The notes beneath the pieces were generated by a model that saw only the letters and a program-made list of their open reading frames with translations, did no database searches and was not told where the DNA came from. A stretch of DNA of 64,000 nt from Sulfuricurvum sp. (GTDB taxonomy: Bacteria > Campylobacterota > Campylobacteria > Campylobacterales > Sulfurimonadaceae), in assembly GCA_030693335.1 (NCBI GenBank), contig JAUYAU010000004.1, positions 62,001 through 126,000 of the forward strand, read 5' to 3'. The translations under genes were made by a program, and so were the position numbers. Shown here piece after piece: positions 20,111-42,811 of this stretch (position 1 is its first letter; each line of letters begins with the position of its first letter).

Positions 20111-20488
20111 CTATAATAATCCCATTTTATTTTTCCATAACTTATAACTTTCATCTGCTGTATTAAATTGCTTTTCAAGTGATGCCAAGTCCTCTAAATA
20201 TGCATGATTTTCTTTTTCATGAGCTCTCTTTTCCAATTCTTGTGCGATTTCATTGATAGCGGTATAACGCAACGATCCGGCACTCCCTTTGATTGAGTGA
20301 GCAAGCATTTCAATGGTCTCATAGTCAAGAACTCTTATTGCTTCATTTAATGCTACCAGCGTTGACGATACAGACTCAAAGAATTTATTGTTCAGTCTGA
20401 TCATGACCTCATCTGACAAATGAAGCATTGCTTTTAATTCACCAAATACCTTTTCAAATTCCTGAATCTGCTCTTCATGGGTTTTCAT
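20111..20488 (-). CDS. Hpt-domain phosphotransfer protein
   Basis: 125 residues, one four-helix Hpt domain. The phosphorylatable His is H64 in LAHSIKGSAGSL, followed by the usual Gly/Ser run. It overlaps the hybrid kinase stop/start by 4 bases, so it is the likely phosphotransfer partner of that kinase's receiver. Last gene of the signalling run. Confidence 0.88.
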   Translation of the reverse strand: MKTHEEQIQEFEKVFGELKAMLHLSDEVMIRLNNKFFESVSSTLVALNEAIRVLDYETIEMLAHSIKGSAGSLRYTAINEIAQELEKRAHEKENHAYLEDLASLEKQFNTADESYKLWKNKMGLL

Positions 20489-23031
20489 ATCAACTTCTTT
20501 GTTGAGAAGCGTGTCATGACGCGATGCAACTCATCATAATCCAAAGGTTTAGCAAGATAATCGTTCATTCCGTGTGCTGTAAACTCTTCAGCATCACCCT
20601 CCATGACATTGGCCGTCAGCGCAATAATTGGAAGCTCAGGATATTCTTTACGAATTAACTTTGTTGCTTGGATTCCGTCCATAACCGGCATATTTACATC
20701 CATCAGTACCAAATCGTATCTATTCTTATGGACCATTTCTACAGCTTCTTTGCCATCATTAGCAAAATCGGCCGTTACCCCATAATGGGAATTTAGCAAT
20801 TCTCCGATGAGCATTCTGTTGATCTCAAAATCATCAACAACCAATACCTTTAATTCTAAATACTTCATGGCAGCTTGATGGGCATTCGTGACTTCGTTCT
20901 CAAACTCATCACATTTTTGCGCATTAAGGACAAAAGAGAAAGTAGACCCTTTCCCCTCTTCGCTTTGTATCGCGATTTCTCCCCCCATAAGCTTCACAAT
21001 CGCGTTGGCAATCGAAAGCCCCAACCCTGTCCCGCCGTATTCACGCGTAGTGGAGGCATCTGCTTGTGTGAATTTTTCAAAAATTTTGCCTTGCTTGCTT
21101 TTTGGAATTCCAATCCCCGTATCAATAACACTAAACTCTAATTTTTGAGCGTTTTTCGTATCCTCAACCATTTCTATCTTAACGTGTACCGATCCCTCTT
21201 CGGGTGTAAATTTAAGCGCATTGCTGATGAGATTGCTCAACACTTGCTTGATACGATGAATATCAAGGATCAAACACTCCTCGATTTTTTCATCCATTAT
21301 CAATCGATAATCTATTTTTTTGATATCTGCTTGAGGAATAAAAAGTTCAAAAACACTCGTAAGTTCTTTCTTCGGATGGCTTTTAATCCATTCTATGTCG
21401 ATTTTACCCTCTTCTATTTTGGAAAAGTCCAAAACATCATTAACAATGTGCAGCAGCATTTCCAATGAACTCTCCACAATCGATACATAACGACGCTGGG
21501 TCGTGTCCAGATTTGTTTTTGAGAGCAAATGGATAAATCCGACAACTCCGTTTATCGGTGTTCGGATTTCATGACTCATATTAGCGACAAAGGCGGATTT
21601 AATCCGTTCGGCTTCCTGTGCATTCAAACGGCTTTTTTGTATTTCGGTCACATCCTCCCGCAATCCAAGGTATTCCAAAATTTTACCGTCTTCATCCACG
21701 ATAGGTGAGATCAAATTTTTAACAAAATAGGACTCTCCGTTCTTTTTGGTATTTTGAAGCATTCCTTGCCAGTTTCTTCCTCGCTGAAGTGTATGCCACA
21801 TCGCTTTGAAAACCGTTGCAGGCGTGTCCGGATGACGTACAATACTATGAGGCTGTCCCAACAGTTCCTCTTGGGTGTATCCGCTGATCTTAACAAAACG
21901 GGGGTTAACATAAGTGATAATCCCCTTTGCATCCGTTCGAGAAACAATCATGCTCTCTTCAATGGCTTTTTTATACTGTTCAGTCAAAAGAACCGAACGA
22001 TTATAATGATAAATATACCACATTAACAACGCCAATATAATGGCAAGCATGATTACTAAAAGGACAAACTGATTCCATTGTGTTGCAAATATCGGATGAT
22101 CCGGGGTGATTTCAACCATATACGCTGCTTGTTCTCCACCGATCTGATAGATCGGTTTTAAAACCATCAGCGCATAGGTTCCCCTGTGAATAAGTTGTAT
22201 CCCTTGTAACTTTTCTTCTTTTAGCCCTTTTAAGATTTTTTCTTTATTTTCGGCGATGAGAGCTTCTAGCTCCCCTTTTGCAAATCCCTGTGCGTCTTTA
22301 AGCAGCGCACTTTCTTGATCTTCGACGTACTCTGAACCAAAAAGAGAGTCTTGATAACGTTTGATCATAGCTTCATGTTTTGACTTTTTCGTTAACATGC
22401 TGCGCTTAATCAAAAAAGTATAGGCTCCCTGATCTTGAAGCATTGCTTGTCGCTTGAGTGCTAAAAACGGATAGGCGATTTCTACCGTTCCGGTGAAATG
22501 CCCTTTATAAAACAAGGGATAAATACTGCGAAAATGACTTGCATATTTTCCCGTTTCAAAAGCAACGACTTTCTTTTGTGTCTGTTGCGCATAAACAACA
22601 ATTGGACGCACACTGCTAAGCTTATCTCCGAACTTTTGTGGCTCATGCACACGTAAAAATGCAATCTGCTCAGGTAAATGGAAAAACAGAATCCGCGTAT
22701 CAAACTCCTGCAGTGAGTCATATACCACCTTCATTCGCTGGTACAGCTCTTGACGCAGAATCATCTGCCCTGACGCGTCACTGTGCATCGCTTGATGCAT
22801 AATCTGGGAAACTCTGGGAGAATCCAAAAACATCCCATAATAGTTATCCATCATTCGCTGCTGCATCGATTCATAGCTTTGCGTACGGTCATTAAACTCT
22901 TTAACGTGAGTTTGAACATAAGCATTTGTCAAGCTTTCATAACGAGAATACAACAAGGAAGAAACAGCCCCAACGAGGGTAATGTATAACGCAAAATAGA
23001 GAAAAACCTTACGCCCGATCAGTTGTCTCAT
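20485..23031 (-). CDS. Hybrid sensor histidine kinase (PAS-HisKA-HATPase-REC)
   Basis: 848 residues. A transmembrane helix near 8-28, a periplasmic sensor of about 290 residues and a second helix near 322-345 are followed by a PAS domain (about 360-465, with YTQEELLGQPHSIVRHPDTP, an Aer-like motif). The kinase core has H487 in MSHEIRTP, N-box NLISNALKFTP, G-boxes DTGIGIP and GGTGLGLSI. A receiver lies at about 725-845 (LVVDDFE, LMDVNMPVMDG). It overlaps the Hpt gene downstream and the REC-GGDEF gene upstream, which points to a phosphorelay with both. Confidence 0.92.
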   Translation of the reverse strand: MRQLIGRKVFLYFALYITLVGAVSSLLYSRYESLTNAYVQTHVKEFNDRTQSYESMQQRMMDNYYGMFLDSPRVSQIMHQAMHSDASGQMILRQELYQRMKVVYDSLQEFDTRILFFHLPEQIAFLRVHEPQKFGDKLSSVRPIVVYAQQTQKKVVAFETGKYASHFRSIYPLFYKGHFTGTVEIAYPFLALKRQAMLQDQGAYTFLIKRSMLTKKSKHEAMIKRYQDSLFGSEYVEDQESALLKDAQGFAKGELEALIAENKEKILKGLKEEKLQGIQLIHRGTYALMVLKPIYQIGGEQAAYMVEITPDHPIFATQWNQFVLLVIMLAIILALLMWYIYHYNRSVLLTEQYKKAIEESMIVSRTDAKGIITYVNPRFVKISGYTQEELLGQPHSIVRHPDTPATVFKAMWHTLQRGRNWQGMLQNTKKNGESYFVKNLISPIVDEDGKILEYLGLREDVTEIQKSRLNAQEAERIKSAFVANMSHEIRTPINGVVGFIHLLSKTNLDTTQRRYVSIVESSLEMLLHIVNDVLDFSKIEEGKIDIEWIKSHPKKELTSVFELFIPQADIKKIDYRLIMDEKIEECLILDIHRIKQVLSNLISNALKFTPEEGSVHVKIEMVEDTKNAQKLEFSVIDTGIGIPKSKQGKIFEKFTQADASTTREYGGTGLGLSIANAIVKLMGGEIAIQSEEGKGSTFSFVLNAQKCDEFENEVTNAHQAAMKYLELKVLVVDDFEINRMLIGELLNSHYGVTADFANDGKEAVEMVHKNRYDLVLMDVNMPVMDGIQATKLIRKEYPELPIIALTANVMEGDAEEFTAHGMNDYLAKPLDYDELHRVMTRFSTKKLI

Positions 23032-23921
23032 AGCGCTCTCTTTTCATACAAAACAACACGGTTTCGCCCTTCTTCCTTGGCGATATACAGTGCTGTGTCT
23101 GCATTTTTTAAAAGATCCTCGTACCGTTGCATATCCGGCTGTAGCTGTCCCACACCAAAACTCGCTGTCACTAAAATACCTTCAGGATGCAGTGCCTCTA
23201 TTTGACTTCGTAATTTTTCTGCTTTTACCAGCGCGTCATCTGCCGTACAGCTGTCCAAAACTATGATAAATTCTTCACCGCCAAAACGTGCGGCCACATC
23301 CTCTTTACGGGCGCTGCTTTCCATAATTTTGGCCACTGCCTTCAAAATGACATCACCCGTTAAATGACCAAACGTATCATTCACGTTTTTAAAATGATCA
23401 ATGTCCACAATAACCACCGAGAGTGCCTTATTATGACGTTTGCTCTCAGATACTTTTTTATCGAGAATATCACTCAAAAAATGACGATTGTACAATCCCG
23501 TCAACTGATCGCGTGTAGCCATTCTTACAAGCTGATCATGCTGCTGCTTGAGTGTGATGTGCGTTTTGACCCGTGCTTTAACGATTGAGGGGCGTATAGG
23601 TTTGGCAATATAATCCACAGCACCCAATTCCAGTCCATATTCTTCATCCTCAGCTGCATCTTTTCCTGTAATAAAGATAATCGGTATTTTGGCAGTGATG
23701 CTCTCTTCTTTGAGTAACTTGAATACATCATAACCGCTTATCTCCGGCATCTGTACATCCAATAATATTAAATCAGGTATTGGATCCTGGCTTGCGAGTT
23801 CCAGTGCCCTTGCCCCTCCAGTAGCTACTTTAACATCATAATCTTCTTTGAGCAAAAGAGCCAATGCTTGCACATTAGTGGGAACATCATCTACAATTAA
23901 TATAACCGCTTTAGTATTCAT
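23028..23921 (-). CDS. Response regulator diguanylate cyclase (REC-GGDEF)
   Basis: 297 residues. The N-terminal receiver has LIVDDV and phosphoacceptor Asp in LILLDVQMPEISG. The C-terminal GGDEF domain has FGGEEF as catalytic site and RKED five residues before it as the inhibitory I-site. It makes cyclic-di-GMP from two GTP, under control of phosphorylation. It sits between two hybrid kinases, overlapping one by 4 bases; it is the only output enzyme of that sub-cluster. Confidence 0.93.
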   Translation of the reverse strand: MNTKAVILIVDDVPTNVQALALLLKEDYDVKVATGGARALELASQDPIPDLILLDVQMPEISGYDVFKLLKEESITAKIPIIFITGKDAAEDEEYGLELGAVDYIAKPIRPSIVKARVKTHITLKQQHDQLVRMATRDQLTGLYNRHFLSDILDKKVSESKRHNKALSVVIVDIDHFKNVNDTFGHLTGDVILKAVAKIMESSARKEDVAARFGGEEFIIVLDSCTADDALVKAEKLRSQIEALHPEGILVTASFGVGQLQPDMQRYEDLLKNADTALYIAKEEGRNRVVLYEKRAL

Positions 23922-23924
23922 ATT

Positions 23925-26900
23925 TTATTCCAATCCTGCCATAATAGTTTCCAAAAGCGCAAGGGCTTCAGGCGTGTCAAATCGATCTATATGCCCTTTA
24001 AGCATACGCATATGCACCGTAAACTCTTCATCGGTATAATCACCAAAAATATCAAGTGCATCGGTATCAATATACGCTCCTGCTTCAATCTCTTTTTTCA
24101 GATTTTGCAATTTTACGGCCATCTGTAACGAATCCATCCGTTTTTTTCGTATCACGGGCCGGACTTCTTGCTTGAGTACTTTTTCAAATACCGCACATAC
24201 CTCTTGCATTGCTTTTTCCAAATTTACAAATTCCTTTTTGAGCGTGCTTTTATTCCCGTTCTTCGCTGAAAATTCGATCGTTTTTGCCAATGCCTGCAGC
24301 TGTTGTGCCGAGACATTCGCTGCCGATCCTTTGATCGAATGTGCGTGCAGCTGTATATTAGACAAATCAGCTTGCGCAATTGCCGTGCCAAGCGCACTGG
24401 TCATTCTGTGACCCTCATCCAAAAATGACTGTATGATTTTTATCAAGAGCTCTTTTTTACCGCCCAATCGCTTAAGCGCATCCGTTTCATCCCACAACTT
24501 AAGCTCTTGAACCTCTTTATCGATGGGCTTGGCTTTTGGCTTTCTTGGATGAACATTCGGCTCATCCGCGACAACGCTTCCCTTCAACCATTTCAGCAAC
24601 GCTGCCCTAAGCGTATCAATATTAATTGGTTTCGTCACATAATCACTCATCCCTGCAATAAGGCATTTTTCACGATCCCCTGCCATTGCATTGGCCGTCA
24701 TTGCGATGATCGGAATCTTTAGATATGCTTCTCCTGCTCTTCCCTCTCGGATTGCCGTTGATGCTGTATAGCCGTCCATTTCAGGCATTTGGCAATCCAT
24801 CAAAAGGAGCGTATAGGGTACGGTTTCCAACGCAAGCTGCATCGCTTCGAGCGCTTCTAAACCATTGCAAGCGACATCTGCTTCCAACCCGATCATCCCC
24901 AGCATACCCTGCGCTACGATCTGATTGGTAGTGTTGTCTTCGACCAATAAAATACGAATATCAGCTGGCCATTGAATCTGTGTATTCTCCTGAAGTGTCC
25001 CTAAATAATCCTTCGTTACAAGCGGAGTAGCCCCCTCAAGCGCCTCCCCCTCATCAAACAGTACTTTGAGCGCGTTGAGCAAATCTTTTGTCGTAGTGGG
25101 TTTGGCAAAGAATGCATCAAATCCGATTTGTGCAAAACGCTGCGCATCATTCCGTGACCCCAATGACGTCATCATAATCATCTTCATATCATCGCATTGA
25201 CGTATACTGCGTATCTCTTCCCCCAGATCCGCCCCATCCATGTTAGGCATCTGCATGTCCAACAGCGCTACATCATAAGGTGGGATATGCCCCTGTGCAA
25301 TACGGATCTGACAATAATCAAATGCAATGATCGGATCTTCAGCCTCATATACTTTCATTCCCCAGCTTTCCAACTGTGCTCGCACAACCGCACGATTCGT
25401 TTCATTGTCATCTACTACAAGAACAGATTTATCCGCAACCGACATACTGGGAATACTCAACGCCGATAGCTCACCCAATCCAACGCCGATATCTATATGG
25501 AAGGTACTCCCCTCATGCTCAACACTCGTTACCCAAATTTTTCCATCCATAATTTCGCACAGTTTCTTCACAATCGCCAGCCCCAATCCCGTGCCGCCAT
25601 ATTTGCGCGTTGTCGAATTGTCCGCTTGCGAAAACGTCTCAAACAATGAGTCAATTTTATCCGCGGAAATTCCGATTCCGCTGTCACGCACATTGATACG
25701 CAATCTTCCGTGATGAGCATCTACTTCATCCAATACTACACTGATGAAAACTTCCCCCCGATGGGTAAATTTGACCGCATTACCGACAAGATTTGTCAAT
25801 ATCTGGCGCAGACGTCCCGGATCGGTAATCACGCTACTGCGTGTCAGTTTCGTCGTATCCAGTATGAGTTCCAGCCCTTTTTCCTGGGCACTAAAAGCAA
25901 TTGCTTCAATAAATTCTCCCAGCTCATCGCGCAAATTGAACTCGATCATCTCAAGCTCCATTTTACCTGCTTCAACTTTGGAAAAATCGAGGATATCGTT
26001 AATGAGTCCCAGCAGTGAGTTTGCACTGTTAGAAGCAACACGCACTTGGTGACGTTGGGTATCATCCAAGTTTGAATGGGACAAAAGTCCAAGCATCCCA
26101 AGCACTCCATTCATAGGAGTCCTGATCTCATGGCTCATGGTTGCTAAAAACTCTGATTTTATCTGTGCAGAAGACTCCGCAGCCTCTTTGGCTATCAGCA
26201 TCTGCTGTTCGGCTTCTTTAAACAGGGAAACATTGCTTGCAATTCCCATATAACCGCTTGTCTTCCCATTTGCATCATACAATGCGGTCACATTCAAATA
26301 CACCGGAACTTCACTGCCGTCTTTGCACACATAGATCCACTCATGCGCATTAGGTAAATGCTTCTGTGCTTTAATTACAAATACCTTAAAGCCAGGCTCC
26401 ACAACCTCCCCTAACTCTTGGGAAAATTCTTTGGCTCTATAAACCACTTCCTCCAACTTGTGAAAAATAGCGGGACTTTCTTTGCCTATCAGCTCTTGGG
26501 CTTTATACCCAAGCATCTCTTCAGCCGCAGCGTTAAACCCTGTTATCATCCCCTCAATGTCCGTAGTAATGATCGCTACCCCGGCATTCTCAAAGATCGC
26601 TTTTTGAAGCTGCATCGCTTTGCTTAGAGAATCTTGAATGGCTTTACGTTCTGTAATATCGGTACGTATTGCAATATAACTCACAGGCTTTTTATGTTCA
26701 TCCATAAAAGGAACGATGGTTGTATCGACCCAATAATACGAACCATTCTTCGCCACATTACACACTTCGCCATGCCATATTGCACCATGACTCACCGTAT
26801 GGTACATCTCTTTCCAGTATTCTATTCCATGCAGACCCGAGTTAAGCAGCCGATGATTTTTTCCGATCAATTCATCACTTTTATAGCCGCTGATCTCTTC

Positions 26901-28271
26901 AAATTTGCTGTTTACAAAGGTAATTGTCCCCTTCACATCCGTAATGGCGACAATAGAATGGGCATCGAGGGCATATTTTTGTTCTTTGAGTTCATCGAGC
27001 GTCTTTTGTGCTTTTTGCGCCAAATAATTCAACTTCTCTTCATTATATTCTTGTTTCTCAATTAACGCATTAAAGACCGATCCAAGTTCTCCAATCTCAT
27101 TAGCAGCCTCCACCGATACATAAACCTCTTTAGTGCCGTTCATATATTGTTTGCTGGCCTCGGAAAGCAATTCAATAGGTTTCACAATACGTCTGGCAAT
27201 CATTATCCCTACAAAAACGACCACACCGGTAACAATCAAAGAAAAAATAATGATCATAGTAAACAAATGATTTGGGATAGCCAGTACCTCTGATTCGTCC
27301 ATTTCACTAATGTGTACCCATCGTATCCCCATTAGATTGATCGATCGGTGTTCCCCCAGAACTTTTTTCCCGTTTGGCCCTATATAAAAGCTTGCTTTTT
27401 CTGACATCCCATCAGGATATTGCCCGTGAATTCCATGTTCGTTATACCAATTCCAAAAAACTTTTGTACTGATTCGTCGCTTCAAAACTTCATCGGAATC
27501 CCCAACGGAACTGCGCAGTAACCCATCTGCTCCAACAAGGTATTGGCTTACTCCCTCTCTCTTATCCTTCAAAGAGTCAAAAAGAACATTCATATTCAAC
27601 TGTAACCCTATAATACCAACCATTTTGCCTGAATTATCCAAAATTGGCTGAGTAATAAATCCGGTCAATGCATCTGCTGAGGGAGCATAACGTTCAAGAT
27701 CTGAAAAATGAACTTTTCCATCTGCAAGACTTCTACGATACGTTTGAGCAAAACGGGTTTTAGAATACAGGCCATTTAAAAGATTTGTCCCTAAATCAGA
27801 TTCTTTTTTAATCGTATAGAGGATATTTCCCTCCAAATCGATTAAAAACAGATCGTACACATAGTCATACTCTTTTGAAAGTGTCAAAATTGTCTCTGGC
27901 TGATTTTTTATGAATTTTTCATACTCTTCACCGTGAATGAAGGAGTAAAGATTCTGGGAACTTTTAGTATAACGCTCATGCAACAAAGATAAAACGTCTT
28001 TAGGTGCTCTAAGCTGCGACCATATCCATAAATTTTTAGCGGCTCCATAAAAATTCTCATTGAGTGTTGCAACATTCAAAACAGCAGTGTTGGTAAGCTT
28101 ATTGCGCTGCATTTCGTCAACGCTTTTGACCGTATGTGCGTATCCATACCAGGCAATAATAACAACAGGAATAATACTCAAAGTCAAAAACCAAAACAAC
28201 AGCGTAAATCCTAAAGAACGGAATAGCTGTCTATTTATGGCTTTCACTTTGAGTATCATCTCTTGAATCAT
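23925..28271 (-). CDS. Giant hybrid histidine kinase (Cache-HAMP-PAS-PAS-HisKA-HATPase-REC-REC-Hpt)
   Basis: 1448 residues. Helices at about 15-40 and 335-357 enclose a dCache-type periplasmic sensor. Then come HAMP (about 358-410), two PAS domains (about 430-550 and 555-690), a HisKA with H714 in MSHEIRTPMNG, HATPase (NLVGNAVKFT, DSGIGIS, GGTGLGLAI), receiver 1 (from about 958, LLDMQMPNMDG), receiver 2 (from about 1107, LMDCQMPEMDG) and Hpt (about 1290-1370, LHAHSIKGSAAN). A C-terminal helical tail of about 60 residues is unassigned. BarA/TorS-type phosphorelay architecture. It overlaps the upstream binding-protein gene by 4 bases, suggesting that protein feeds ligand to the periplasmic sensor. 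Confidence 0.92.
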   Translation of the reverse strand: MIQEMILKVKAINRQLFRSLGFTLLFWFLTLSIIPVVIIAWYGYAHTVKSVDEMQRNKLTNTAVLNVATLNENFYGAAKNLWIWSQLRAPKDVLSLLHERYTKSSQNLYSFIHGEEYEKFIKNQPETILTLSKEYDYVYDLFLIDLEGNILYTIKKESDLGTNLLNGLYSKTRFAQTYRRSLADGKVHFSDLERYAPSADALTGFITQPILDNSGKMVGIIGLQLNMNVLFDSLKDKREGVSQYLVGADGLLRSSVGDSDEVLKRRISTKVFWNWYNEHGIHGQYPDGMSEKASFYIGPNGKKVLGEHRSINLMGIRWVHISEMDESEVLAIPNHLFTMIIIFSLIVTGVVVFVGIMIARRIVKPIELLSEASKQYMNGTKEVYVSVEAANEIGELGSVFNALIEKQEYNEEKLNYLAQKAQKTLDELKEQKYALDAHSIVAITDVKGTITFVNSKFEEISGYKSDELIGKNHRLLNSGLHGIEYWKEMYHTVSHGAIWHGEVCNVAKNGSYYWVDTTIVPFMDEHKKPVSYIAIRTDITERKAIQDSLSKAMQLQKAIFENAGVAIITTDIEGMITGFNAAAEEMLGYKAQELIGKESPAIFHKLEEVVYRAKEFSQELGEVVEPGFKVFVIKAQKHLPNAHEWIYVCKDGSEVPVYLNVTALYDANGKTSGYMGIASNVSLFKEAEQQMLIAKEAAESSAQIKSEFLATMSHEIRTPMNGVLGMLGLLSHSNLDDTQRHQVRVASNSANSLLGLINDILDFSKVEAGKMELEMIEFNLRDELGEFIEAIAFSAQEKGLELILDTTKLTRSSVITDPGRLRQILTNLVGNAVKFTHRGEVFISVVLDEVDAHHGRLRINVRDSGIGISADKIDSLFETFSQADNSTTRKYGGTGLGLAIVKKLCEIMDGKIWVTSVEHEGSTFHIDIGVGLGELSALSIPSMSVADKSVLVVDDNETNRAVVRAQLESWGMKVYEAEDPIIAFDYCQIRIAQGHIPPYDVALLDMQMPNMDGADLGEEIRSIRQCDDMKMIMMTSLGSRNDAQRFAQIGFDAFFAKPTTTKDLLNALKVLFDEGEALEGATPLVTKDYLGTLQENTQIQWPADIRILLVEDNTTNQIVAQGMLGMIGLEADVACNGLEALEAMQLALETVPYTLLLMDCQMPEMDGYTASTAIREGRAGEAYLKIPIIAMTANAMAGDREKCLIAGMSDYVTKPINIDTLRAALLKWLKGSVVADEPNVHPRKPKAKPIDKEVQELKLWDETDALKRLGGKKELLIKIIQSFLDEGHRMTSALGTAIAQADLSNIQLHAHSIKGSAANVSAQQLQALAKTIEFSAKNGNKSTLKKEFVNLEKAMQEVCAVFEKVLKQEVRPVIRKKRMDSLQMAVKLQNLKKEIEAGAYIDTDALDIFGDYTDEEFTVHMRMLKGHIDRFDTPEALALLETIMAGLE

Positions 28272-29170
28272 CGTCTTACCTCATTGAAATAAATCAATTC
28301 AGCAACAGGATAGTTCATTTCCTCTAGTTTTTTCTTCATTACTGGAGAAAGCGTTTCATTATTAATCCATCGTATGTTTGCGCGCATCTGTTCAAACTCC
28401 TCAAAACCTACATTATTGAGATAAGGCTTTACTGTTTTATAGAAAAGTTTTGGATTATTCTGATAAGAAGAAACGGCTTTATCCATAAGCGCTTTAAGTG
28501 TTTGCAGCTGTTTTTTATGTTGATTGTAAACCTGACGGGAAGTCATAAAAGAATCAACGACCACATAATGATCATTTTTACTGCTCGCAATCTCTTTGAA
28601 GCCTTGTTTTTTCAAAGCCAAATCATGAGGATTATAAGTTATCATAATAAAGGCCTCATTTGAATTTGGGTTGCCGACACGCTTAATTTCTTCTTGACTG
28701 CGATTATAAATCTTCATCTTATCTTTGGAAAGATTATGTTCTACGATTAAATAATTGAGCATATCTTCCCCCACTGTATCAAGCTCAACGTACACACTCA
28801 TCTTTGTATCCGGTTGAAGCAGCTGCTGGAGAGTGCGGTTTGAAAGGATGACGTCTCCCCCATAGGAGCGATCATAAATAATAACAGGGATGAGATCTTT
28901 ATGAAATTCTTTGAGCCGAAAATACTCATGCTCCGTACCCGTCACAACATCAGAGGCATTGGTCTCATACAAATTTAAATTTTCTTCAATTGAGCCCGCT
29001 TGAAGTATTTGAATATTAGCCTCTTTTAGCCATCCCGTTGCATGAGCATAGTACAAAGGGCTGGCTCCGATCCATGTGTCCACTGAAATCACAAGCGGTT
29101 TTTCCTCAACAGGGGCACATCCCCAGAAGATAAACATAGCACCCACTATCCCCGAGATCAAACCCTTCAT
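28268..29170 (-). CDS. Periplasmic substrate-binding lipoprotein (NMT1/SsuA-like), no transporter nearby
   Basis: 300 residues. The leader ends in the lipobox IFWGC (Cys near 18). The mature part ISVDTWIGASPLYYAHATGW...ILQAGSIEENLNL is like ABC-type binding proteins of the NMT1/THI5/SsuA group. No permease or ATPase gene is present; instead the gene is coupled by 4-base overlap to the giant kinase. I infer a sensory role (ligand presentation to the kinase). Ligand unknown. Confidence 0.8.
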   Translation of the reverse strand: MKGLISGIVGAMFIFWGCAPVEEKPLVISVDTWIGASPLYYAHATGWLKEANIQILQAGSIEENLNLYETNASDVVTGTEHEYFRLKEFHKDLIPVIIYDRSYGGDVILSNRTLQQLLQPDTKMSVYVELDTVGEDMLNYLIVEHNLSKDKMKIYNRSQEEIKRVGNPNSNEAFIMITYNPHDLALKKQGFKEIASSKNDHYVVVDSFMTSRQVYNQHKKQLQTLKALMDKAVSSYQNNPKLFYKTVKPYLNNVGFEEFEQMRANIRWINNETLSPVMKKKLEEMNYPVAELIYFNEVRR

Positions 29171-35414: not shown

Positions 35415-35780
35415 TTAAACTTTTAACAAGAGCTGCAAATACCCTTTCAGAGCATCGGGCTTAATAGGTTTGGTTTCGAAAAGATTGGCACCTACTTTAA
35501 ACGCTTCGAGTTTGTCCGTTGCTGCCATTTGTATTGTGATCATGATAACAGGAGTAAAGCGGCGCATTGGCTGCTGACGTAATTCACTCACAAATGAGTA
35601 ACCGTCCATAACCGGCATATTCACATCTACAAGATACAAATCCACATTATTGTCCAATGATTTTTCAAGTGCTTCCATCCCATTTTCTGCTTCAAGCACT
35701 TCTACACCTAAATCTTTTAGAATAGAGCCATGATAACTCCGCACTGTTTTTGAATCGTCCACTACCATTACTGTTGCCAT
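35415..35780 (-). CDS. CheY-type response regulator 1
   Basis: 121 residues, a lone receiver. D8, D9 and phosphoacceptor D52 (in YLVDVNMPVMDG) and the Lys in ETKPI are present. It lies next to cheA, between it and the CheZ-like gene. Confidence 0.92.
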   Translation of the reverse strand: MATVMVVDDSKTVRSYHGSILKDLGVEVLEAENGMEALEKSLDNNVDLYLVDVNMPVMDGYSFVSELRQQPMRRFTPVIMITIQMAATDKLEAFKVGANLFETKPIKPDALKGYLQLLLKV

Positions 35781-35789
35781 TTCATGCTC

Positions 35790-36182
35790 CTAAAAAAACT
35801 CTATTCCGTCATCATCGTCTTCACGATTCACTTTTCCGCTAAATGCACTGTGTTTCTGTTTTGCTTTCTCAAGCGCATTCGTCAATTTTCCGTGCATTTT
35901 TTCAATGCTTTGCGCTGCAATCGCATCATCCTCGCTAAAAGCATGCATAAAATACTGCATATGTTCCTGCGCACTCTCAATAGCTTCTATCGTCGCACTT
36001 AACTGTTGCGCAATGATGTCTTGATACTGCATCGCTTCGAGCGTTTCATCATCTACGCTTAAACCGTTTTTATCAAGGAAGCGGACAAATCGTAACTGTG
36101 CCTCTTGTGTTAGTCCAATGGTCTCGCGTTCCACGTTTTTAACATGTTCCAATAATCCATTAAGAGTATGTAAGAATTGCAT
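35790..36182 (-). CDS. CheZ-like CheY phosphatase (candidate)
   Basis: 130 helical residues. The segment MQYQDIIAQQL gives Q54-D55-x3-Q59, the same spacing as the CheZ catalytic D-x3-Q in FQDLTGQ. The C-terminus D-D-D-D-G-I-E-F-F resembles the acidic-aromatic CheY-binding tail of CheZ. It is smaller than E. coli CheZ (214 residues), like the remote CheZ proteins known in this phylum. Its position between two cheY genes fits. Function is inferred from motif and context. Confidence 0.65.
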   Translation of the reverse strand: MQFLHTLNGLLEHVKNVERETIGLTQEAQLRFVRFLDKNGLSVDDETLEAMQYQDIIAQQLSATIEAIESAQEHMQYFMHAFSEDDAIAAQSIEKMHGKLTNALEKAKQKHSAFSGKVNREDDDDGIEFF

Positions 36183-36192
36183 CTTGATTGAC

Positions 36193-36564
36193 TTATGCTA
36201 AGCGCAATACTCTAGAAATTGCCTGCTTAAGCTGTGCCGGGTTGAATGGTTTTACCACCCAGCCCGTCAATCCAAGAGCTTTTCCCTGTGCTTTGAGTTC
36301 ATCGCGTGTTTCAGTTGTAAGCATCAATACCGGAGTGCGAGCCGTACTTGGAACCTGACGAAGTCCCTGTAAAAACTCAAATCCGTTCATAACAGGCATA
36401 TTCATATCCGTAATAATCAAATCAGGAACCATCCCCCCTTTGATTTCATTGAGTGCATCAACCGCAGATAAATATTGCTTTACCTCAATAGGCATTGAAT
36501 CCGTAACCATCCGAGTGGATGCTAAAGCGGTCTCACTGTCGTCTACAAATATTACTAATGGCAT
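36193..36564 (-). CDS. CheY-type response regulator 2
   Basis: 123 residues, a lone receiver with D8, D9, D53 (LIITDMNMPVMNG), a Thr in MLTTET and the Lys in VVKPF. Paralogue of the 35415 gene. Having two CheYs in one cluster suggests one output and one phosphate sink. Confidence 0.92.
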   Translation of the reverse strand: MPLVIFVDDSETALASTRMVTDSMPIEVKQYLSAVDALNEIKGGMVPDLIITDMNMPVMNGFEFLQGLRQVPSTARTPVLMLTTETRDELKAQGKALGLTGWVVKPFNPAQLKQAISRVLRLA

Positions 36565-36583
36565 TTTCTTCTCCTAAATGTGA

Positions 36584-37414
36584 TTATTTTTGATAAATTA
36601 ATGTGGAATCAATTTTTTTGGCCTTAAACACCGAAGTGATACGGCTCATATATTCAGCATGACCCAATAAAACATAACCATTTGGGTTAAGCATATCGTA
36701 AAAGGTCATTGCAACTTCTTTTCGGCTGGCATCATCAAAATAGATCAGCATATTACGTGAAAAAATTACATCAAATTTTCCCAACTTTCGCATATCCCCT
36801 CTATCGAAGACATTGGATACTTTAAAATCAACTGTGCCGATAAGATCATCAATGAGATCATAACCCAACGTCCGTTTTTTAAAATACTTAGCCAATACCT
36901 TCGGAGGTATCGCATGGACTGAACGGTCAGAGTATTTGCCCAATTTGGCTTTTTCAATAACCGTACTGTCAATGTCAATACCTACAATTTCGATATCACG
37001 TTCTTCGACAATACGCGCTTCTTCGAGAATGTGCAATATCATCGAATAGGGTTCTTCCCCCGTAGAACTTGGTGCAGATAAAATCCGCAAAGCCTGCCCT
37101 TTTGGTTTTATTTCATGCAGTTCCGGCAAAATTCGCTCTACTAAAACCTCAAACTGCTCTTTCTCACGATAAAAATAGGTTTCATTAACCGTCATCCCAT
37201 TCATAAGTGCTTGAAACTCTGCGCCATCTTTATCATCAAAACGCAAGGTGTAAAAATATTTACGGAAGGAATCAGCTCCGATTGCTTTACAACGTGTTTC
37301 TATGTACTTGGAAAGTTTGTCAAAATGTTTGTCAAGTTCCAAGTATATTCCCGCTTTACGATAAATGTAATCGGTCATCTTGTAAAAATTTTCTTCTGAT
37401 AAAAGAGCTTCCAC
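36584..37414 (-). CDS. cheR: Chemoreceptor methyltransferase CheR
   Basis: 276 residues. N-terminal helical domain, then the SAM-binding domain with LSAPSSTGEEPYS (usual form S-A-A-C-S-T-G-E-E-P-Y-S), IVGIDIDSTVIEKA and FDVIFSRNMLIYFD. It methylates receptor glutamates for adaptation, using SAM. With CheB in the same run, an adaptation system is complete. Confidence 0.95.
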   Translation of the reverse strand: MEALLSEENFYKMTDYIYRKAGIYLELDKHFDKLSKYIETRCKAIGADSFRKYFYTLRFDDKDGAEFQALMNGMTVNETYFYREKEQFEVLVERILPELHEIKPKGQALRILSAPSSTGEEPYSMILHILEEARIVEERDIEIVGIDIDSTVIEKAKLGKYSDRSVHAIPPKVLAKYFKKRTLGYDLIDDLIGTVDFKVSNVFDRGDMRKLGKFDVIFSRNMLIYFDDASRKEVAMTFYDMLNPNGYVLLGHAEYMSRITSVFKAKKIDSTLIYQK

Positions 37415-37416
37415 AA

Positions 37417-38043
37417 TTACCCCCGAATACTGCGAATGGCATTATCGATTGCGAAATCGGCATACGTATCATTAAAACGGCTTTTGACTGTTTCGAGCAA
37501 GGGAATGTCCTCCATTTCACCAATCTCGGCCATATAGTCCACAGCCGTCATTGCCACATTGATGTCGCTTTCATTTTCTAGAAGCTCAATGAGCATATCA
37601 CGAGATTGGGCAAAATTAACATCACCCAAAACATTGATCGCAAAAATACGCAAATCACGATCATCTCCAATCAAAAATTTCACAATATAATATTTGATTG
37701 CATCGCCATAGCTTTGAAGCGTTGTGATCCCCAGATTGCGAATGTATGCATTACGTACTTTGAGCAGTCCCATAATCGATTCGATAGGAGCACGACTTCC
37801 CTCCATTTTAGAAAGAGTGGCGGCAATTTTACTTGCCATGTCTTTATGGACATACGGGCTATCTATCAAAAGTTTAACCAACTCTTCTCCGCCGCCATCG
37901 AACATTTCAATTTGCTCTATTGCATAGCCTTGCTCATCAAATTTTTCATCATTAGCATGATAATATTCTACCGCCTCTTCTAATCTTGAAAACTCTGGAA
38001 GCTCTTCAACAACCTGCTGTATGTGTTTTTTTACCAGTGCCAT
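37417..38043 (-). CDS. HEAT-repeat protein of the chemosensory cluster
   Basis: 208 residues, all-helical, with HEAT-like repeats (LLIDSPYVHKDMASKIAATL, LKVRNAYIRNLGITTLQ, LIGDDRDLRIFAINVLGDV, LENESDINVAMTAVDYMAEI). Such proteins act as scaffolds. It lies between cheR and cheB with very short spacers. The role in the array is unknown. Confidence 0.82.
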   Translation of the reverse strand: MALVKKHIQQVVEELPEFSRLEEAVEYYHANDEKFDEQGYAIEQIEMFDGGGEELVKLLIDSPYVHKDMASKIAATLSKMEGSRAPIESIMGLLKVRNAYIRNLGITTLQSYGDAIKYYIVKFLIGDDRDLRIFAINVLGDVNFAQSRDMLIELLENESDINVAMTAVDYMAEIGEMEDIPLLETVKSRFNDTYADFAIDNAIRSIRG

Positions 38044-38053
38044 GCCTATATCC

Positions 38054-39112
38054 TTAGCGTAGTGTTTGAAGCGCTCTTACAATCTTAGGGAACGGGAGCT
38101 GCTGGGATACTCCCCCTCGATCATAAGCTTCTTTTGGCATTCCATAAACCGTTGCCGTCTCTTCGCTCTCACCAATGGTGAATCCTCCTGCTTGCTTGAT
38201 CGCAACCATACCACTCGCACCGTCATCACCGATCCCTGTCAATAAAACCCCTACAATCTGATCACCTGAAAATACTTTGAGCGCACTCATAAACATTTCA
38301 TCAACGCTGGGCTGAAAAAAACGGTTTCCTTTCTTTTTCTCCTCACGGATAACCACTCTTCCGGTCACTTTTTTAGCAAAGTGCATGTGAACTCCGCCAC
38401 GTGCGAGATAAATATTACCGGGGTAAAGTTCCATATGATCTTTTGCTTCTATAACCGGCAAAGTACTGTTTTTGTCCAATCGAGTTGCGAATGCTGCGGT
38501 GAACTGCTCGGGCATGTGCTGAACAATACAAACGGCGTAACCAAACGATGAGGGCAATGCCGTACAAATCTGTTCAATAAGCCCAGGTCCGCCTGTTGAT
38601 GCGCCAATCAATAATATTTTGGTTACATCTGCAGTTGATTTATTTTCCAAACGTGTCGCTTCCCGAACACTTTGCGGACGTTCACGTACAACACTGCGCC
38701 GTGTCATTGTTTTCAAACGTCGCGGCGGAATACGACTGAGAGACTTAACTTTTTGGACGATATCTTCTGAGTTTTCACTGCGCCCTACATTCATCGTTCC
38801 GGGTTTTGAAATATAGTCAACAGCACCTGCATCAAGTGCTTCCATTGTAATTTGAGCACTTTCAGTCGTCAAAGAACTGATCATCAAAATCGGGGTTGGG
38901 CGTACTTCCATGATCTTACGAACAGCGGTAAGACCATCCATAATCGGCATATTAATATCCATTGTAATAACATCGTATTGACTGGCAAGCGCTTTTTCAA
39001 CCGCTTCGGCACCATTACGTGCCGTGTCAATCTCAAATCCAAGCTCGGCTATAATCTCTGTTATTTGTTTTCTAACCAATGCCGAATCATCTGCTATAAG
39101 GATTCTTTTCAT
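38054..39112 (-). CDS. cheB: Chemotaxis protein CheB (REC-methylesterase)
   Basis: 352 residues. A receiver (ILIADDSAL, ITMDINMPIMDG) is followed by the CheB esterase with the Ser in GASTGGP, His in QHMPEQF and Asp in TGIGDDGASGM. It demethylates or deamidates receptors when phosphorylated. It overlaps the triple-CheW gene by 4 bases. Confidence 0.96.
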   Translation of the reverse strand: MKRILIADDSALVRKQITEIIAELGFEIDTARNGAEAVEKALASQYDVITMDINMPIMDGLTAVRKIMEVRPTPILMISSLTTESAQITMEALDAGAVDYISKPGTMNVGRSENSEDIVQKVKSLSRIPPRRLKTMTRRSVVRERPQSVREATRLENKSTADVTKILLIGASTGGPGLIEQICTALPSSFGYAVCIVQHMPEQFTAAFATRLDKNSTLPVIEAKDHMELYPGNIYLARGGVHMHFAKKVTGRVVIREEKKKGNRFFQPSVDEMFMSALKVFSGDQIVGVLLTGIGDDGASGMVAIKQAGGFTIGESEETATVYGMPKEAYDRGGVSQQLPFPKIVRALQTLR

Positions 39113-40485
39113 GCAGCGCCTTCCAATACTTGTGAAATATTACGGTTAAACAGCAACACCAGCCGTTTTCCTTCATCTAAATGAATAACATTCGAAAAAA
39201 GCCCATCACCGCTCTCTTCCTCTCTCATCTGTGCCGGATCAATCGACAGAACATCGCTTACCGTATTTACAAAAAATCCAATTCGTCCTTTTGGGGCATG
39301 ACAAATAATAATTTTCTGATCTCCATGTGTAGGAATTTTTATCCCCAAGCGTTTATGCAAAGAGCCGATGGTCACAATCTGCCCTCGTATGTTGATGATT
39401 CCGTCTACCATTTCAGCAGCATTTGCCACCGGAGTGACAGGAGTCATATCAATAATCTCTGCAACCTCTTCGATACTAAAGGCATACTCTTCATTTCCGA
39501 GTTTAAAAATCACTACTTCCACCATCTCAACTGCATTCTCGCTCACCGCTGCAACGTCATTGGAAACAACAATATCATTGTTTCGCTCCAACAAAGATTC
39601 AATAGCGCTGTTTGAGACAAGAGAGATAAGCTTATCTCCATTATGTATTACACCGGCAATGCGTTTATCATCATTGCTTGTCCCCAGTGAATCCAAATCG
39701 GCTTTTGAGAACTCATGAATGTCCACAATTTCATCAATCATCAATCCCAATGTTTTATTGTGCATCTGAACGATCATGATGCGATTCTTTTCTCCTGGCT
39801 TGGGTTGAAATCCGTAAAAACGGCGTAAATCAGCAATAACCACAAGTTCTTCGCGTAAAGACATCATGCCGATAATTTCATCATTTGAACCCGCCATGGC
39901 GGTAATAGTGACATCTGCATTCAGAATCTCTCTCAAGTCATCAATAGGGAGTGCATATTCTTCTGCTCCCATTTTAAAAACGAGATAACGGCTTTTATCT
40001 TCCACTTTTATGGATGATTCTGTGTCATAGCGGCTTTTCTCTGACACCACTTGAGCTGCTACCTTCACGGATCGAATCGCTGCGATAACGTACTCCAGAC
40101 TGACAACCTGAATCAGCATATCTTCATAATGAACAATGGCGATAATCGCCTCATCCACAACATCCAGATACTCAATTTTTTGTTGATCGATCGTCAAAGA
40201 AACCGTTACTTGATCCACAAGCAATGCCAATGTGTTCATCTCATTATTCAATGTGATAACCCGATTTTTCTGATCCAAGGCGCTGCAAGGCGTAAGACCC
40301 AATAAAAGGTTAAAATCCAATAAGGTAACAATCCCTCCGCCAACGGCACATAAGCCGCGGACTTCATAAGGGCTCAATGCCAAGCTCGTAATATCCGGGA
40401 CACGAAGAATTTGACCAATCAACGCAGTGGAAATACCAAATGAAACCTCATTATGGCGAATAATCAAAATCTCTTCGATAAGCAT
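39109..40485 (-). CDS. Triple CheW-domain coupling protein
   Basis: About 458 residues made of three CheW domains: about 1-140, 165-305 and 325-458, each with a Y/F-A-L/F-x-I strand and a G-x-I/M-x-x-R-x-x-x-V block. ATG 40485 is chosen: GGGG lies eight bases upstream, just past the receptor stop; the longer frame extends into the receptor gene. Such polyvalent CheW proteins can cross-link receptor or CheA assemblies. It follows the receptor gene directly. Confidence 0.88.
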   Translation of the reverse strand: MLIEEILIIRHNEVSFGISTALIGQILRVPDITSLALSPYEVRGLCAVGGGIVTLLDFNLLLGLTPCSALDQKNRVITLNNEMNTLALLVDQVTVSLTIDQQKIEYLDVVDEAIIAIVHYEDMLIQVVSLEYVIAAIRSVKVAAQVVSEKSRYDTESSIKVEDKSRYLVFKMGAEEYALPIDDLREILNADVTITAMAGSNDEIIGMMSLREELVVIADLRRFYGFQPKPGEKNRIMIVQMHNKTLGLMIDEIVDIHEFSKADLDSLGTSNDDKRIAGVIHNGDKLISLVSNSAIESLLERNNDIVVSNDVAAVSENAVEMVEVVIFKLGNEEYAFSIEEVAEIIDMTPVTPVANAAEMVDGIINIRGQIVTIGSLHKRLGIKIPTHGDQKIIICHAPKGRIGFFVNTVSDVLSIDPAQMREEESGDGLFSNVIHLDEGKRLVLLFNRNISQVLEGAA

Positions 40486-40489
40486 GGAA

Positions 40490-42373
40490 TTACCCCTGTT
40501 GAAGTTCATCCGCCATGACAGCGAGTTCTTCAACGCCTTCGCCAATATGGCTTACCGTTTCAATAATCAGTTCACTGGCTTTACGAGATTCCTGTGCATT
40601 GCGCGCTGAAAGTTCAACTGCTTTTTGAATCTCACTAATACCGATAAGTCCTTGATTAAGACCCTCAATGTTTTGATCATTGATTGTTTTAAGACCCGTA
40701 AAGCGATCAAGTAAATCAATCAGCATGGTAGTGATTTTATCGATTTCGTGAATCAATGTTCCAATTTGCTCTTTTTCACCCTCTTGATTGATCAACAGCT
40801 TAAGCCAATCCGTACGAACAGTATCAATTTCTGCATTCATGGATTCGATCGTATCATTGATCTTCTCGGTATTGGATTCGGAATCTTTGGCCAAATTACG
40901 GATATCCGCACTAACAACCGCAAATCCTTTACCAAAATCACCTGCACGCGCCGCTTCGATCGAACCGCTGATTGCCAACATATTAAGCTGGATAATGCTG
41001 TTAGAGATACTGCCAACCGTTTTATCAACGTTACGTGTCTCTTTAACGATCACATCAAGCTCGCTGCTTGCGCTGCTGCCCTCTGCTATTGAATTGACAA
41101 AATCTTGACTGATTCCATTCATTTGACCTTTCACATCCGCAAATGATGTTTTCAGCAAGTCAAAGTTACGACGTGCAATTTCGATAAGTTTGCTGATGTC
41201 TTTGGATGCAGCAAGACCGCTCTCAAACAGTTCTTTATTTAAAATAGCACTTTGGTTTGTTGCTTGAGAAGAGGCTTCGATTTGATTTAATCCGCTTGTT
41301 ACTTCTTTGAGAGAATTTTGGATGTCGTCCATCGATGAACTGATAGCATCTGCAGATGCCGCTATCTCTTCGGCCGATTTCATCGTATCCGTTGAAAATT
41401 TAAGCTCTTCGGAAAGATTATTGAGTTCTTTAATATCCTCTTCGGTTTGAACCAGTGAGTTGCTTTGCATTTCGATACTGTTGAGGGTTTTTTCAACGGA
41501 TTTTGCAATCTCACTGGATGCATCTGCGATTTCTTTTGACCCGTCATTGATCTGCACAACAGAATGACCGAGGCTTTGAGTATAGCTGCTCATATTACGG
41601 GCCGCTTCTACCGAGTAAACCGCGATCTTGGTAAGTTCCTCCATTTTAAAACTCAGAGAGGAACCGCGTCCGCCGGTTTGCTCAATAATACCTGTTGTAC
41701 TGGTAATACTTTTGATGATATTATCGATACTTTCTTGGATTTTATTGACCAAATTCGAAATAAAATCGGCATTCTTTTCAGATTCACCCGCAAGCGCACG
41801 TGTTTCATCCGCTACAACTGCAAACCCTTTTCCATGCTCTTTTGCACGGCTGGCTTCGATAGCGGCATTAAGCGCCAAAAGGTTCGTTTGATCCGCAATT
41901 TTTGCGATAAATCCAACCGCCTCTCCGATATTCTCAGAAGAAATTTTTAGCTCTTCCGATTTAGTAGATGATGTTTTAGCAACATTCACCGCCTGCGACA
42001 TACGCGCAACCGAGGTGTTGATCGTGCCAACTGCTCCCATGATGTTATCACCCGTTACAAGTGTTGAGGAGATAACCGTATCAATACTGGTCGTCATACG
42101 CCCGATATTGGAGTTGATAGCCCGTACATTTTTAAGCGCCTGCTCACTTGCCCCGCTGTTTTCCTCTGCCGCTGTCGCGATTTGTTCCATCGAGCTCTTG
42201 AGTTGCTCAATCGCACTTACGCTCTCTTGCGCGTTACCCAAAATAGTCGTAGCTACTCCGGCGATACTTTCTGATATTTGTTGCTGTTTTGCCAAAGTAC
42301 GCTGACGTCTCTTGTCTGGGCTAACGCTTCCTACTGCTGCGGGTGCATGCTCTGTTCGTCTTACTAGTGCCAT
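40490..42373 (-). CDS. Soluble double-tip chemoreceptor (DosM-like MCP)
   Basis: 627 residues with no transmembrane helix and no sensor domain. It has two chemoreceptor signalling tips: residues about 160-200 ([19 protein letters not shown]...[11 protein letters not shown]) and about 455-495 ([28 protein letters not shown]), joined by coiled coil. The N-terminal 30 residues are basic (R5, R6, K21-R23, R25, K29). Vibrio cholerae DosM, with two signalling domains, stabilises cytoplasmic arrays; this protein has the same design. Adaptation sites are likely, given CheR/CheB. The input probably comes from the PAS protein encoded just upstream. Confidence 0.9.
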
Positions 42374-42382
42374 TGTTTCTCC

Positions 42383-42811
42383 TTAATCCAGTGTCGCGTA
42401 GAGCGCTTCTGCTTTTTTGATATCTTCACGTGATGGTTTAATACGGATAGAAACATACTTCACATTTCCATTTTTATCGGTTGAACGCAAAACGGTTGCG
42501 TATACCCAGTAATGTCCCCCGCCTTTACGTGCGTTTTTAACGTATCCGGTCCAAAAACCTTTTGCCTGAACATCGTCCCATAGTGAACGAAACGCCGCAC
42601 GCGGCATGTCAGGATGGCGAACGCAGTTATGCGGCTGGCCAAGGAGATCTTCCCCTTTCCATCCCGCAACTTTTGCGAAGGAATCGCTCACATAGGTAAT
42701 AATCCCTTTTTCGTCCGTTTCGGACAATAAATATAAGTCATCATAGAGCATTTCACCATCATCTAAAAACGTAAGCCCTTCTGTATTGGGTGTGTCATCC
42801 GTTCTTGCCAT
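42383..42811 (-). CDS. Aer-type PAS protein, soluble
   Basis: 142 residues, one PAS domain with the Aer/CetB-like motif GQPHNCVRHPDMP and later GHYWVYATVLR, the type that binds FAD and reports redox or energy state. No membrane helix. ATG 42811 is used (GGGG six bases upstream); TTG 42826 is in frame but lacks an RBS. It is the first gene of the run, 9 bases before the double-tip receptor, so it is probably its sensory partner, comparable to CetB with CetA in Campylobacter. Confidence 0.85.
   Translation of the reverse strand: MARTDDTPNTEGLTFLDDGEMLYDDLYLLSETDEKGIITYVSDSFAKVAGWKGEDLLGQPHNCVRHPDMPRAAFRSLWDDVQAKGFWTGYVKNARKGGGHYWVYATVLRSTDKNGNVKYVSIRIKPSREDIKKAEALYATLD

Follow-up and report, generated by a model that had tools for sequence, protein, structure and literature searches.

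A probable F9-class chemosensory module with an attached kinase/c-di-GMP module in a signalling gene array of Sulfuricurvum sp.

Does a tightly packed array of signalling genes represent one system or more than one? This question is raised by positions 20111-42811 of a 64,000-nt stretch of DNA from Sulfuricurvum sp. (contig JAUYAU010000004.1, host genome of 2.17 Mb), the whole of which is called the window here. Twenty-one genes, all on the minus strand, run from 42811 to 20111 and combine chemosensory proteins with phosphorelay kinases and a diguanylate cyclase for cyclic di-GMP (c-di-GMP). An earlier note on this DNA had suggested that the array may be one integrated system with a non-flagellar or motility-lifestyle output, and had named no described system of this exact composition. 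Positions 29180-42811 were found to hold, with high probability, a full cytoplasmic chemosensory system of class F9, to which a separate kinase/c-di-GMP module is attached at positions 20111-29170.

Gene content and class assignment

Class F9 was assigned because DosM and CheW3, both signatures of this class, are present. A receptor with a double signalling domain (DosM) and a triple CheW protein (CheW3) are named as architectures unique to class F9 in passages of PMC9321776 and PMC7534058. What had been noted as a soluble receptor is such a DosM (40490..42373), with three MCPsignal stretches in Pfam forming two tandem signalling domains of the methyl-accepting chemotaxis protein (MCP) type, hairpin-tip motifs at residues 165 and 465, the N-terminal sequence MALVRR and no strong hydrophobic segment by hydropathy. 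Three of the five CheW domains outside CheA belong to a single protein, CheW3 (39109..40485). The set is a full one, with its own CheA (32647..35400; Hpt, H-kinase_dim, HATPase_c and CheW-like domains) and CheY proteins in the same cluster as CheB (38054..39112; REC and methylesterase) and CheR (36584..37414). The two single-REC CheY proteins lie at 36193..36564 (CheY a) and 35415..35780 (CheY b).

Class F3 is the flagellar class of the phylum and is marked by a CheA with a REC domain and a cheVAW operon, according to a passage of PMC9321776. Neither mark was found here: the CheA has no REC match, and no CheW-REC protein (CheV) occurs among the 21 genes. F9 has already been reported among free-living Campylobacterota in a part of PMC9239204. 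The chemosensory half is thus of a described class (excerpts of PMC9321776, PMC7534058 and PMC9239204), and the suggested novelty of its composition is not supported.

The module resembles Vibrio cholerae cluster I (F9) in its DosM with two signalling domains, CheW3, CheB, CheR, CheY and CheA, and in components free of membrane segments. Unlike that core, the window adds a PAS protein of 142 amino acids (aa) (42383..42811; Pfam PAS_3/PAS), a CheZ-like protein of 130 aa (35790..36182), two single CheW proteins (32198..32632 and 31484..31912), a ParA/MinD-type ATPase (30744..31487; Pfam AAA_31, CbiA and MipZ), a 439-aa REC protein called REC-439 here (29405..30724) and a conserved protein of 71 aa (29180..29395). 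This comparison follows the published description of the V. cholerae system and covers its core, the accessory genes of its locus lying outside it. A HEAT-repeat protein (37417..38043; Pfam HEAT_2, N-terminus MALVKK) and a STAS-like protein (31929..32198) complete the module.

The kinase module starts with a lipoprotein of the periplasmic-binding type (28268..29170), read from the sequence and without Pfam match. It is followed by a membrane hybrid kinase of the build dCache-HAMP-PAS-PAS-HisKA-HATPase-REC-REC-Hpt (23925..28271), a REC-GGDEF diguanylate cyclase (23028..23921), a second membrane hybrid kinase, dCache_3-PAS-HisKA-HATPase-REC (20485..23031), and an Hpt protein (20111..20488).

Most of what the earlier note had listed was recovered. 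At least 20 co-directional signalling genes with overlaps or short gaps had been counted; there are 21, spaced by -4 to +19 bp with the start of CheW3 taken as 40485. This start was chosen from the starts in relatives; the mechanically called open reading frame (ORF) starts at 40545, and an earlier, less likely start gives -5 bp. Pfam confirmed CheR, CheB, both CheY, CheA, the five CheW domains, the receptor, PAS, ParA, HEAT, the kinases, REC-GGDEF and Hpt. The CheZ-like and STAS labels fared less well, as the window proteins have no Pfam match, and they are retained on a conserved D-x-x-x-Q motif and on STAS_2 matches in 10 of 25 relatives, respectively. The 19-residue mean hydropathy is at most 1.8 across the 16 chemosensory genes and reaches 3.0 in both hybrid kinases, in agreement with the distinction drawn before between membrane-free inputs and membrane-bound kinases. 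The lack of strong hydrophobic segments fits the predicted double-layer cytoplasmic array. The tandem signalling domains of the receptor, the lipoprotein, the two REC domains and own Hpt of the first kinase, and two further domains in REC-439 had been missed.

Gene order, module ends and insertion site

The F9 system, scored by CheW3 at E<=1e-20, is present in 84 of 228 genomes of the family; G115 was kept among these with a weak partial match (30% identity, two stops). Forty F9 loci were fetched; L045 and L062 do not reach as far as CheA and are excluded from the comparison of gene order. The order PAS-DosM-CheW3-CheB-HEAT-CheR-CheY-(CheZ-like)-CheY-CheA is kept in 37 of the remaining 38 loci and is therefore not due to chance. 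The CheZ-like gene went undetected in L076. In the sole locus that misses the order, L065 (G133), STAS-ParA-PAS-DosM-CheW3-CheB was read and the HEAT gene lies about 9 kb upstream; L148 is likewise permuted, with ParA directly before PAS-DosM-CheW3. ParA was found in all 38 spanning loci and REC-439, whole or partial, in 34.

Positions 29170-29405, considered as a promoter gap, are occupied by the 71-aa ORF, which rules out such a gap; of the 40 loci fetched, 31 have a relative of this ORF in the corresponding position at more than 85% coverage. The small protein has no Pfam match and carries conserved Cys and His positions (C-x-C, C-x-x-H). The ends of the F9 module are sharp, the PAS gene on one side and this small ORF on the other.

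Both ends are also visible from genomes without F9. In the five F9-less genomes examined from the large genus g16 of the family, labelled Sulfurimonas-type by inference, flhA, a 134-aa gene and rpsO stand directly beside a 238-aa gene (5/5). The 134-aa gene is putatively Rrf2-like; this label and the name rpsO are taken from the sequences. Seen from the flhA side, each of the seven F9 loci examined has rpsO next to the PAS gene. At the other end, 13 of the 38 loci have a relative of the 238-aa gene (73-86% identical) within 177 bp of the module end, and another four have one 1.3-5.4 kb beyond it. In the genome of the window itself, the arrangement at flhA is empty (L191, G000:C12, about 72-74 kb), and its F9 module therefore sits elsewhere. 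Between flhA and the F9 module of three Sulfurimonas-type genomes, a protein of 651-784 aa with a hydrophobic N-terminus, grouped with the PAS gene by sequence similarity, was seen (L197:10701-13040, L198:2015-4369, L196:11470-13425), possibly a sensor.

With HEAT as marker, 82 GTDB loci were matched and 80 kept; each has a Campylobacterota title and adjoining F9 genes. Given the narrow scan patterns, little can be concluded from absence elsewhere, and these loci share genomes with the 40 fetched ones, which makes the two sets non-independent. A HEAT profile run against a sample of 397 genomes of the phylum hit nine genomes at E<=1e-8, all in the family of the window; in this sample it did not pick up the partial F9 sets that have been described for Nitratiruptor and Nautilia.

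Attachment of the kinase/c-di-GMP module

The sensor part of the first kinase was searched for within the genus (E<=1e-25) and found in 10 of 41 genomes. All ten carry F9 and have the sensor on the same contig as CheW3, which it follows at 9.8-11.1 kb; for G079 the linkage was scored through the contig carrying the end of CheW3. The sensor was found in none of the 24 F9-less genomes of the genus and is also lacking in seven of the 17 that bear F9. Among the 40 family loci fetched, the kinase half was seen in members of the genus only, where the sensor remains attached to F9 while diverging to 48% identity.

Other lineages carry other genes in the slot behind the module. These are GGDEF-EAL in L055 and L056, a gene with weak EAL and HDOD matches in L053, a 788-aa gene with a CheX-like gene and PAS-GGDEF in L054, an MCP with a zinc-binding domain plus thioredoxin in L051, a permease facing the module in L046, and elsewhere a beta-propeller protein or unassigned genes. 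The kinase attachment is a stable feature of one clade, while the slot itself is variable.

One integrated 21-gene system that evolved as a unit is very unlikely on these data. The spacing, which nowhere among the 21 genes exceeds 19 bp, would suit it, as would the strict linkage of the sensor to F9 in 10/10 genomes despite the divergence and the presence of other c-di-GMP genes in the same slot of other lineages. At the level of the family it is ruled out by the empty site and by loci that end at the small ORF: the border gene of the empty site follows within 177 bp in 13/38 loci, and 7/17 F9-bearing genomes of the genus are without the sensor. F9 is present in 84/228 family genomes, the sensor in 10/41 of the genus. 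Halves consistently found apart had been named in the earlier note as a refutation of one system; in the family they do occur apart, in one way, as F9 without the kinases, but not inside the kinase-bearing clade.

A mere crowding of genes, in which the kinase module was inserted behind a long operon without functional coupling, is a possible explanation that we lean against. The varied content of the slot (permease, MCP with thioredoxin, beta-propeller protein, unassigned genes) speaks for it; that the sensor kinase is invariably linked to F9 in the ten genomes speaks against it, though one ancestral event could explain this. We consider the array to be two modules: an F9 system of a known class in a phylum known for F9, whose accessory set is specific to the family, and a kinase/c-di-GMP attachment specific to one clade.

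That F9 acts through neighbouring c-di-GMP enzymes to set c-di-GMP levels or lifestyle, and not flagellar rotation, is unlikely. Four different arrangements of c-di-GMP genes do occur in the downstream slot of different lineages, but this recurrence was counted after it had been seen in the data, the slot is without a gene of this kind in most of the 40 loci, and c-di-GMP genes abound in many of these genomes according to a passage of PMC9239204.

Relation to flagella

FlhA was found in 198 of the 228 family genomes and in 78 of the 84 with F9. Among the six F9-bearing genomes that lack FlhA, FliF is present in five, so a loss of flagella was rejected and gaps in the assemblies are the likelier cause; the sixth (G202) has a completeness of 65%. 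With FlhA or FliF in 83 of 84 F9 genomes, the suggestion of a non-flagellar output is not supported. F9 is commoner in FlhA-positive genomes (Fisher p 0.04 for all 228 and 0.03 for 139 high-quality genomes, shared ancestry being ignored). In at least 32 F9 genomes, read by hand, flhA and CheW3 share a contig, point in opposite directions and are 3414-6683 bp apart; among the remaining ones, at least 23 have flhA on another contig, many assemblies being fragmented, and six are without it. Because the empty site has the same flhA, its proximity is an inherited position and no proof of a flagellar output.

Control by the flagellar (sigma-28) regulon was considered for the operon. In the 109 stretches upstream of the PAS gene, a strict sigma-28 pattern occurred once, in the window itself (shuffled mean 0.36, maximum 3), and a loose pattern five times against a shuffled mean of 5.2; the stretches of L058, L061, L134 and L149 are short, at 45-47 bases. 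A sigma-28 promoter was rejected, the pattern being at the level of the shuffles. In a generic scan for promoters and terminators, counts were likewise not above those in shuffled sequence.

That F9 controls flagellar motility, as energy or stress taxis, together with the other chemosensory genes of the genome is quite possible, though somewhat short of probable. The co-occurrence with FlhA or FliF, the Fisher tests and the presence of two CheY proteins with a CheZ-like protein are in its favour, as is a passage of PMC9321776 in which a complete set of flagellar genes is reported for 97% of F9 species. Against it stand the flhA neighbourhood, which is present empty in F9-less genomes, the lack of a conserved sigma-28 site, and FlhA being common anyway (198/228). 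In V. cholerae, deletion of the F9 cheA is described in a part of PMC7534058 as without detectable phenotype under standard conditions. F9 is linked with flagellate lineages, and flagellar motility is a candidate output.

CheZ-like protein and REC-439

The 130-aa protein is named CheZ-like after the conservation of the motif QYQDIIxQQ, which contains D-x-x-x-Q: D55 and Q59 are invariant in 25/25 sequences, and so are E128, F129 and F130. The catalytic pair of Escherichia coli CheZ, D143/Q147, has the same D-x-x-x-Q spacing, and its C-terminal tail binds CheY. PF04344 found no CheZ in the whole host genome, with a positive E. coli control; it is a weak test here, because it misses any CheZ in that genome, the F3 type included. 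The C-terminus, IEFF in the window, reads I[ED]FF in 33/36 and 55/63 sequences of two sets, with VEFF in seven of the 11 exceptions, and REC-439 ends in DDIFDF in 31/31 and 45/45. Both acidic-aromatic tails are likened here to the CheY-binding tail of CheZ.

An AlphaFold model of REC-439 (30 sequences; predicted local distance difference test, pLDDT, 82; predicted template modelling score, pTM, 0.37) predicts a REC domain, an alpha/beta domain and a helical bundle. Searches with the whole model gave mostly REC folds, LvrC and RssB, which combine REC with a second domain, ranking first in Foldseek, and the protein was for this reason remodelled without REC (pLDDT 81, pTM 0.48; best Foldseek E-value 0.0065). 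The alpha/beta part aligns best with anti-sigma factors of the RsbW/SpoIIAB type (Z 9.3-11.2 over 96-109 residues, 5-10% identity), and the bundle with CheA P1 domains (Z 10.6-12.2 over 125-128 residues, 7-17% identity). In CheA, the phospho-His sits on the second P1 helix. The one well-kept His of the bundle (His364, 25/31) is found at the end of the third helix, and the bundle, P1-like in fold, is therefore probably not a phosphodonor. Taken with the tail, which resembles one that docks on CheY, the predicted architecture suggests a gate that interacts with CheY or CheA.

In 10 GTDB loci a kinase gene is inserted between parA and REC-439 (L120, L130, L138, L139, L146, L150, L151, L155, L157 and L169), overlapping the REC-439 start in seven. 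Of six that were scanned, all have HisKA, five HATPase and four an N-terminal REC. Judged by its position, such a kinase would be a natural partner for the REC domain of REC-439.

HEAT and STAS-like proteins across phyla

A tblastn search of plasmids with the HEAT protein gave 15 records, none at 80% coverage. Seven of the ten records listed were opened (Methylobacterium, Sphaerotilus, three of Azospirillum, Methylosinus and Eleftheria). In all seven of these alpha- and betaproteobacterial loci the HEAT gene lies within MCP-CheW-CheB-HEAT-CheR-CheY-CheA, followed by a gene for a "hypothetical" protein of 78-87 aa. The DosM and CheW3 of the window match the MCP and CheW genes of these loci over most of their length, at 31-36% identity for DosM, and HEAT is 25-34% identical. 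These plasmid F9 clusters share with the window the gene order, the trailing small gene and the N-terminal sequence of DosM and HEAT discussed below; they differ in lacking a match to PAS, CheZ-like and the non-REC part of REC-439 (E<=0.01), and ParA is matched in two of the seven.

The STAS-like protein has an invariant His47 and Gln52 in 25/25 sequences, taken from 21 Campylobacterota and from the small protein of four proteobacterial loci. Pfam STAS_2 matches 10 of these 25 at E<=0.1 (best 1.1e-4). A profile search of the PDB returned no STAS chain, only designed repeat and carrier proteins, which were taken as chance. In STAS/RsbW partner switches, a Ser/Thr of the STAS protein can be phosphorylated and RsbW is an ATP-binding kinase. 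The invariant His presumably stands about where this Ser would be, and the protein looks like a degenerate STAS domain. Since both recur in the proteobacterial F9 loci, HEAT and the STAS-like protein seem to belong to F9 generally, beyond its core. A limited search of literature on F9, DosM and cytoplasmic arrays found no mention of a HEAT repeat. General HEAT and STAS-like parts, the common N-terminal sequence and the tail-bearing REC protein are apparently new in that descriptions of them were not found in this limited search.

A common N-terminal tag and ParA

DosM and HEAT, otherwise unrelated, start with the same short sequence, MAL[VIML][KR], in 39/40 and 39/39 cases of the first set (window included) and in 65/68 and 68/77 of a second, overlapping set, the pattern being drawn from the data in which it was counted. 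The looser M[AGPT]L.[KRN] covers 68/68 DosM and 77/77 HEAT proteins of the second set. In DosM, the 15-25 residues after the tag vary freely. All 14 DosM and HEAT N-termini of the proteobacterial loci fit M[AGPST][LI]x[KRT], with HEAT of L218 counted from an upstream in-frame start. As an outside yardstick, 14 of 594 mechanically called long ORFs fit the tag pattern, 13 of them DosM or HEAT; this background may be undercounted because the ORF starts are mechanical. Codon 2 of DosM is GCA in 61/68, so the likeness at position 2 may partly reflect a preference at translation start.

From these alignments it is tentatively proposed that DosM and HEAT carry a common docking tag of 5-6 residues, M-[small]-[L/I]-x-[K/R/T] and often a further basic residue, for one partner; we give this a chance a little below even. 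The partner could be the ParA-type ATPase, or the tag could be an assembly code independent of ParA. The ParA/MinD-type ATPase of this che operon has no ParB-like Pfam match beside it among the genes scanned, and ParA in che operons without ParB is associated with cytoplasmic receptors in a passage of PMC2829493. ParA is the first candidate, because known ParA/MinD partner proteins act through short, positively charged N-termini (passages of PMC10241942 and PMC13170346); the N-terminus of TlpT acts on PpfA (excerpt of PMC3964821). Against ParA as partner, the tag is kept in five of seven proteobacterial loci without a ParA match in the stretch, and L166 and L170 (2/2 in Campylobacterota) keep both tags with no ParA at E<=1; these absences hold for the examined stretches, the rest of those genomes being unsearched. 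By analogy, the tag may be a ParA-activating peptide, which is offered as a lead.

Two known systems can be compared. CheOp3 of Rhodobacter sphaeroides (PpfA/TlpT) likewise has a ParA-type ATPase in the operon of a soluble receptor; it differs in its receptor type and in its split CheA3/CheA4, and DosM and CheW3 are not described there in the excerpt of PMC3964821. PomX/PomY/PomZ, with two activators for one ParA/MinD ATPase (passage of PMC13170346), would serve as a model should ParA be the target of DosM and HEAT alike. The Pom activators use different regions, whereas the window proteins carry the same short N-terminal tag.

Genes flanking the array

Ten flanking genes were scanned: MORN, MotA_ExbB, ExbD, TonB, an integrase, an M23 peptidase, NMT1-GGDEF, a Tsx-like gene, a radical-SAM gene of the RlmN type and PNP. 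The MotA_ExbB match is part of an ExbB-type set with the ExbD and TonB genes, and the statement that no flagellar genes are near holds for these ten. The NMT1 periplasmic-binding domain fused to GGDEF (43946-45532, plus strand) is divergent from the array and stays beside F9 in several Sulfuricurvum-type genomes. A transposase-type gene (HTH_38, rve; 14005-15021, minus strand) lies on the downstream side.

Proposed mechanism and implications

From the content, order, boundaries and distribution of the genes, we infer the following working model for an F9 module with an attached kinase module. DosM, with a signalling tip at each end, would build a two-layer membrane-free array with other soluble receptors, CheW3, CheW and CheA, which CheR and CheB would adapt. 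CheA would phosphorylate both CheY proteins, and the small CheZ-like protein would dephosphorylate them. ParA would position the array on the nucleoid, and HEAT and the degenerate STAS-like protein may be structural or regulatory parts of F9 more widely. The family-specific REC-439 probably docks on CheY or CheA through its DDIFDF tail and gates the pathway. In the kinase module, the signal would pass from the binding protein to the dCache hybrid kinase and on to REC-GGDEF and c-di-GMP, alongside the second hybrid kinase and Hpt. This module probably feeds the adjoining REC protein or proteins and sets c-di-GMP, by which outside signals would reach the cytoplasmic array. The output may be related to motility.

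Several points weigh against this reading or parts of it. Published F9 systems come without a known output, the sigma-28 site upstream of the PAS gene is not conserved, and the CheZ-like protein has neither a Pfam match (0.001) nor a PDB match. REC-439 was not found in four of the 38 loci; its RsbW-like and P1-like parts are fold resemblances at 5-17% identity, and for a helical bundle a Z of 11-12 can be chance. His364 of the bundle is not on the second helix, where CheA has its phospho-His, and the N-box Asn was not seen by eye in the RsbW-like part. The empty site does not hold for every genome: a different gene adjoins rpsO in an F9-less one of the Sulfuricurvum type (G044, L190). The coupling of the two modules, finally, is proposed from their adjacency.

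The array illustrates that genes packed perfectly tightly over 22.7 kb can belong to two modules whose histories differ. The structure of F9 arrays has been well visualised but their function is obscure, and this locus family points to constant parts beyond the core, HEAT and the STAS-like protein. A regulator combining REC with RsbW-like and CheA-P1-like domains is a further lead from it. With ParA as partner, the tag would give a second case of one ParA/MinD ATPase with two activators, here using the same peptide twice; with another partner, it would be an F9 assembly code that works even where the locus has no ParA. In either case, a common terminal tag would offer a direct handle on the assembly or positioning of a membrane-free array.

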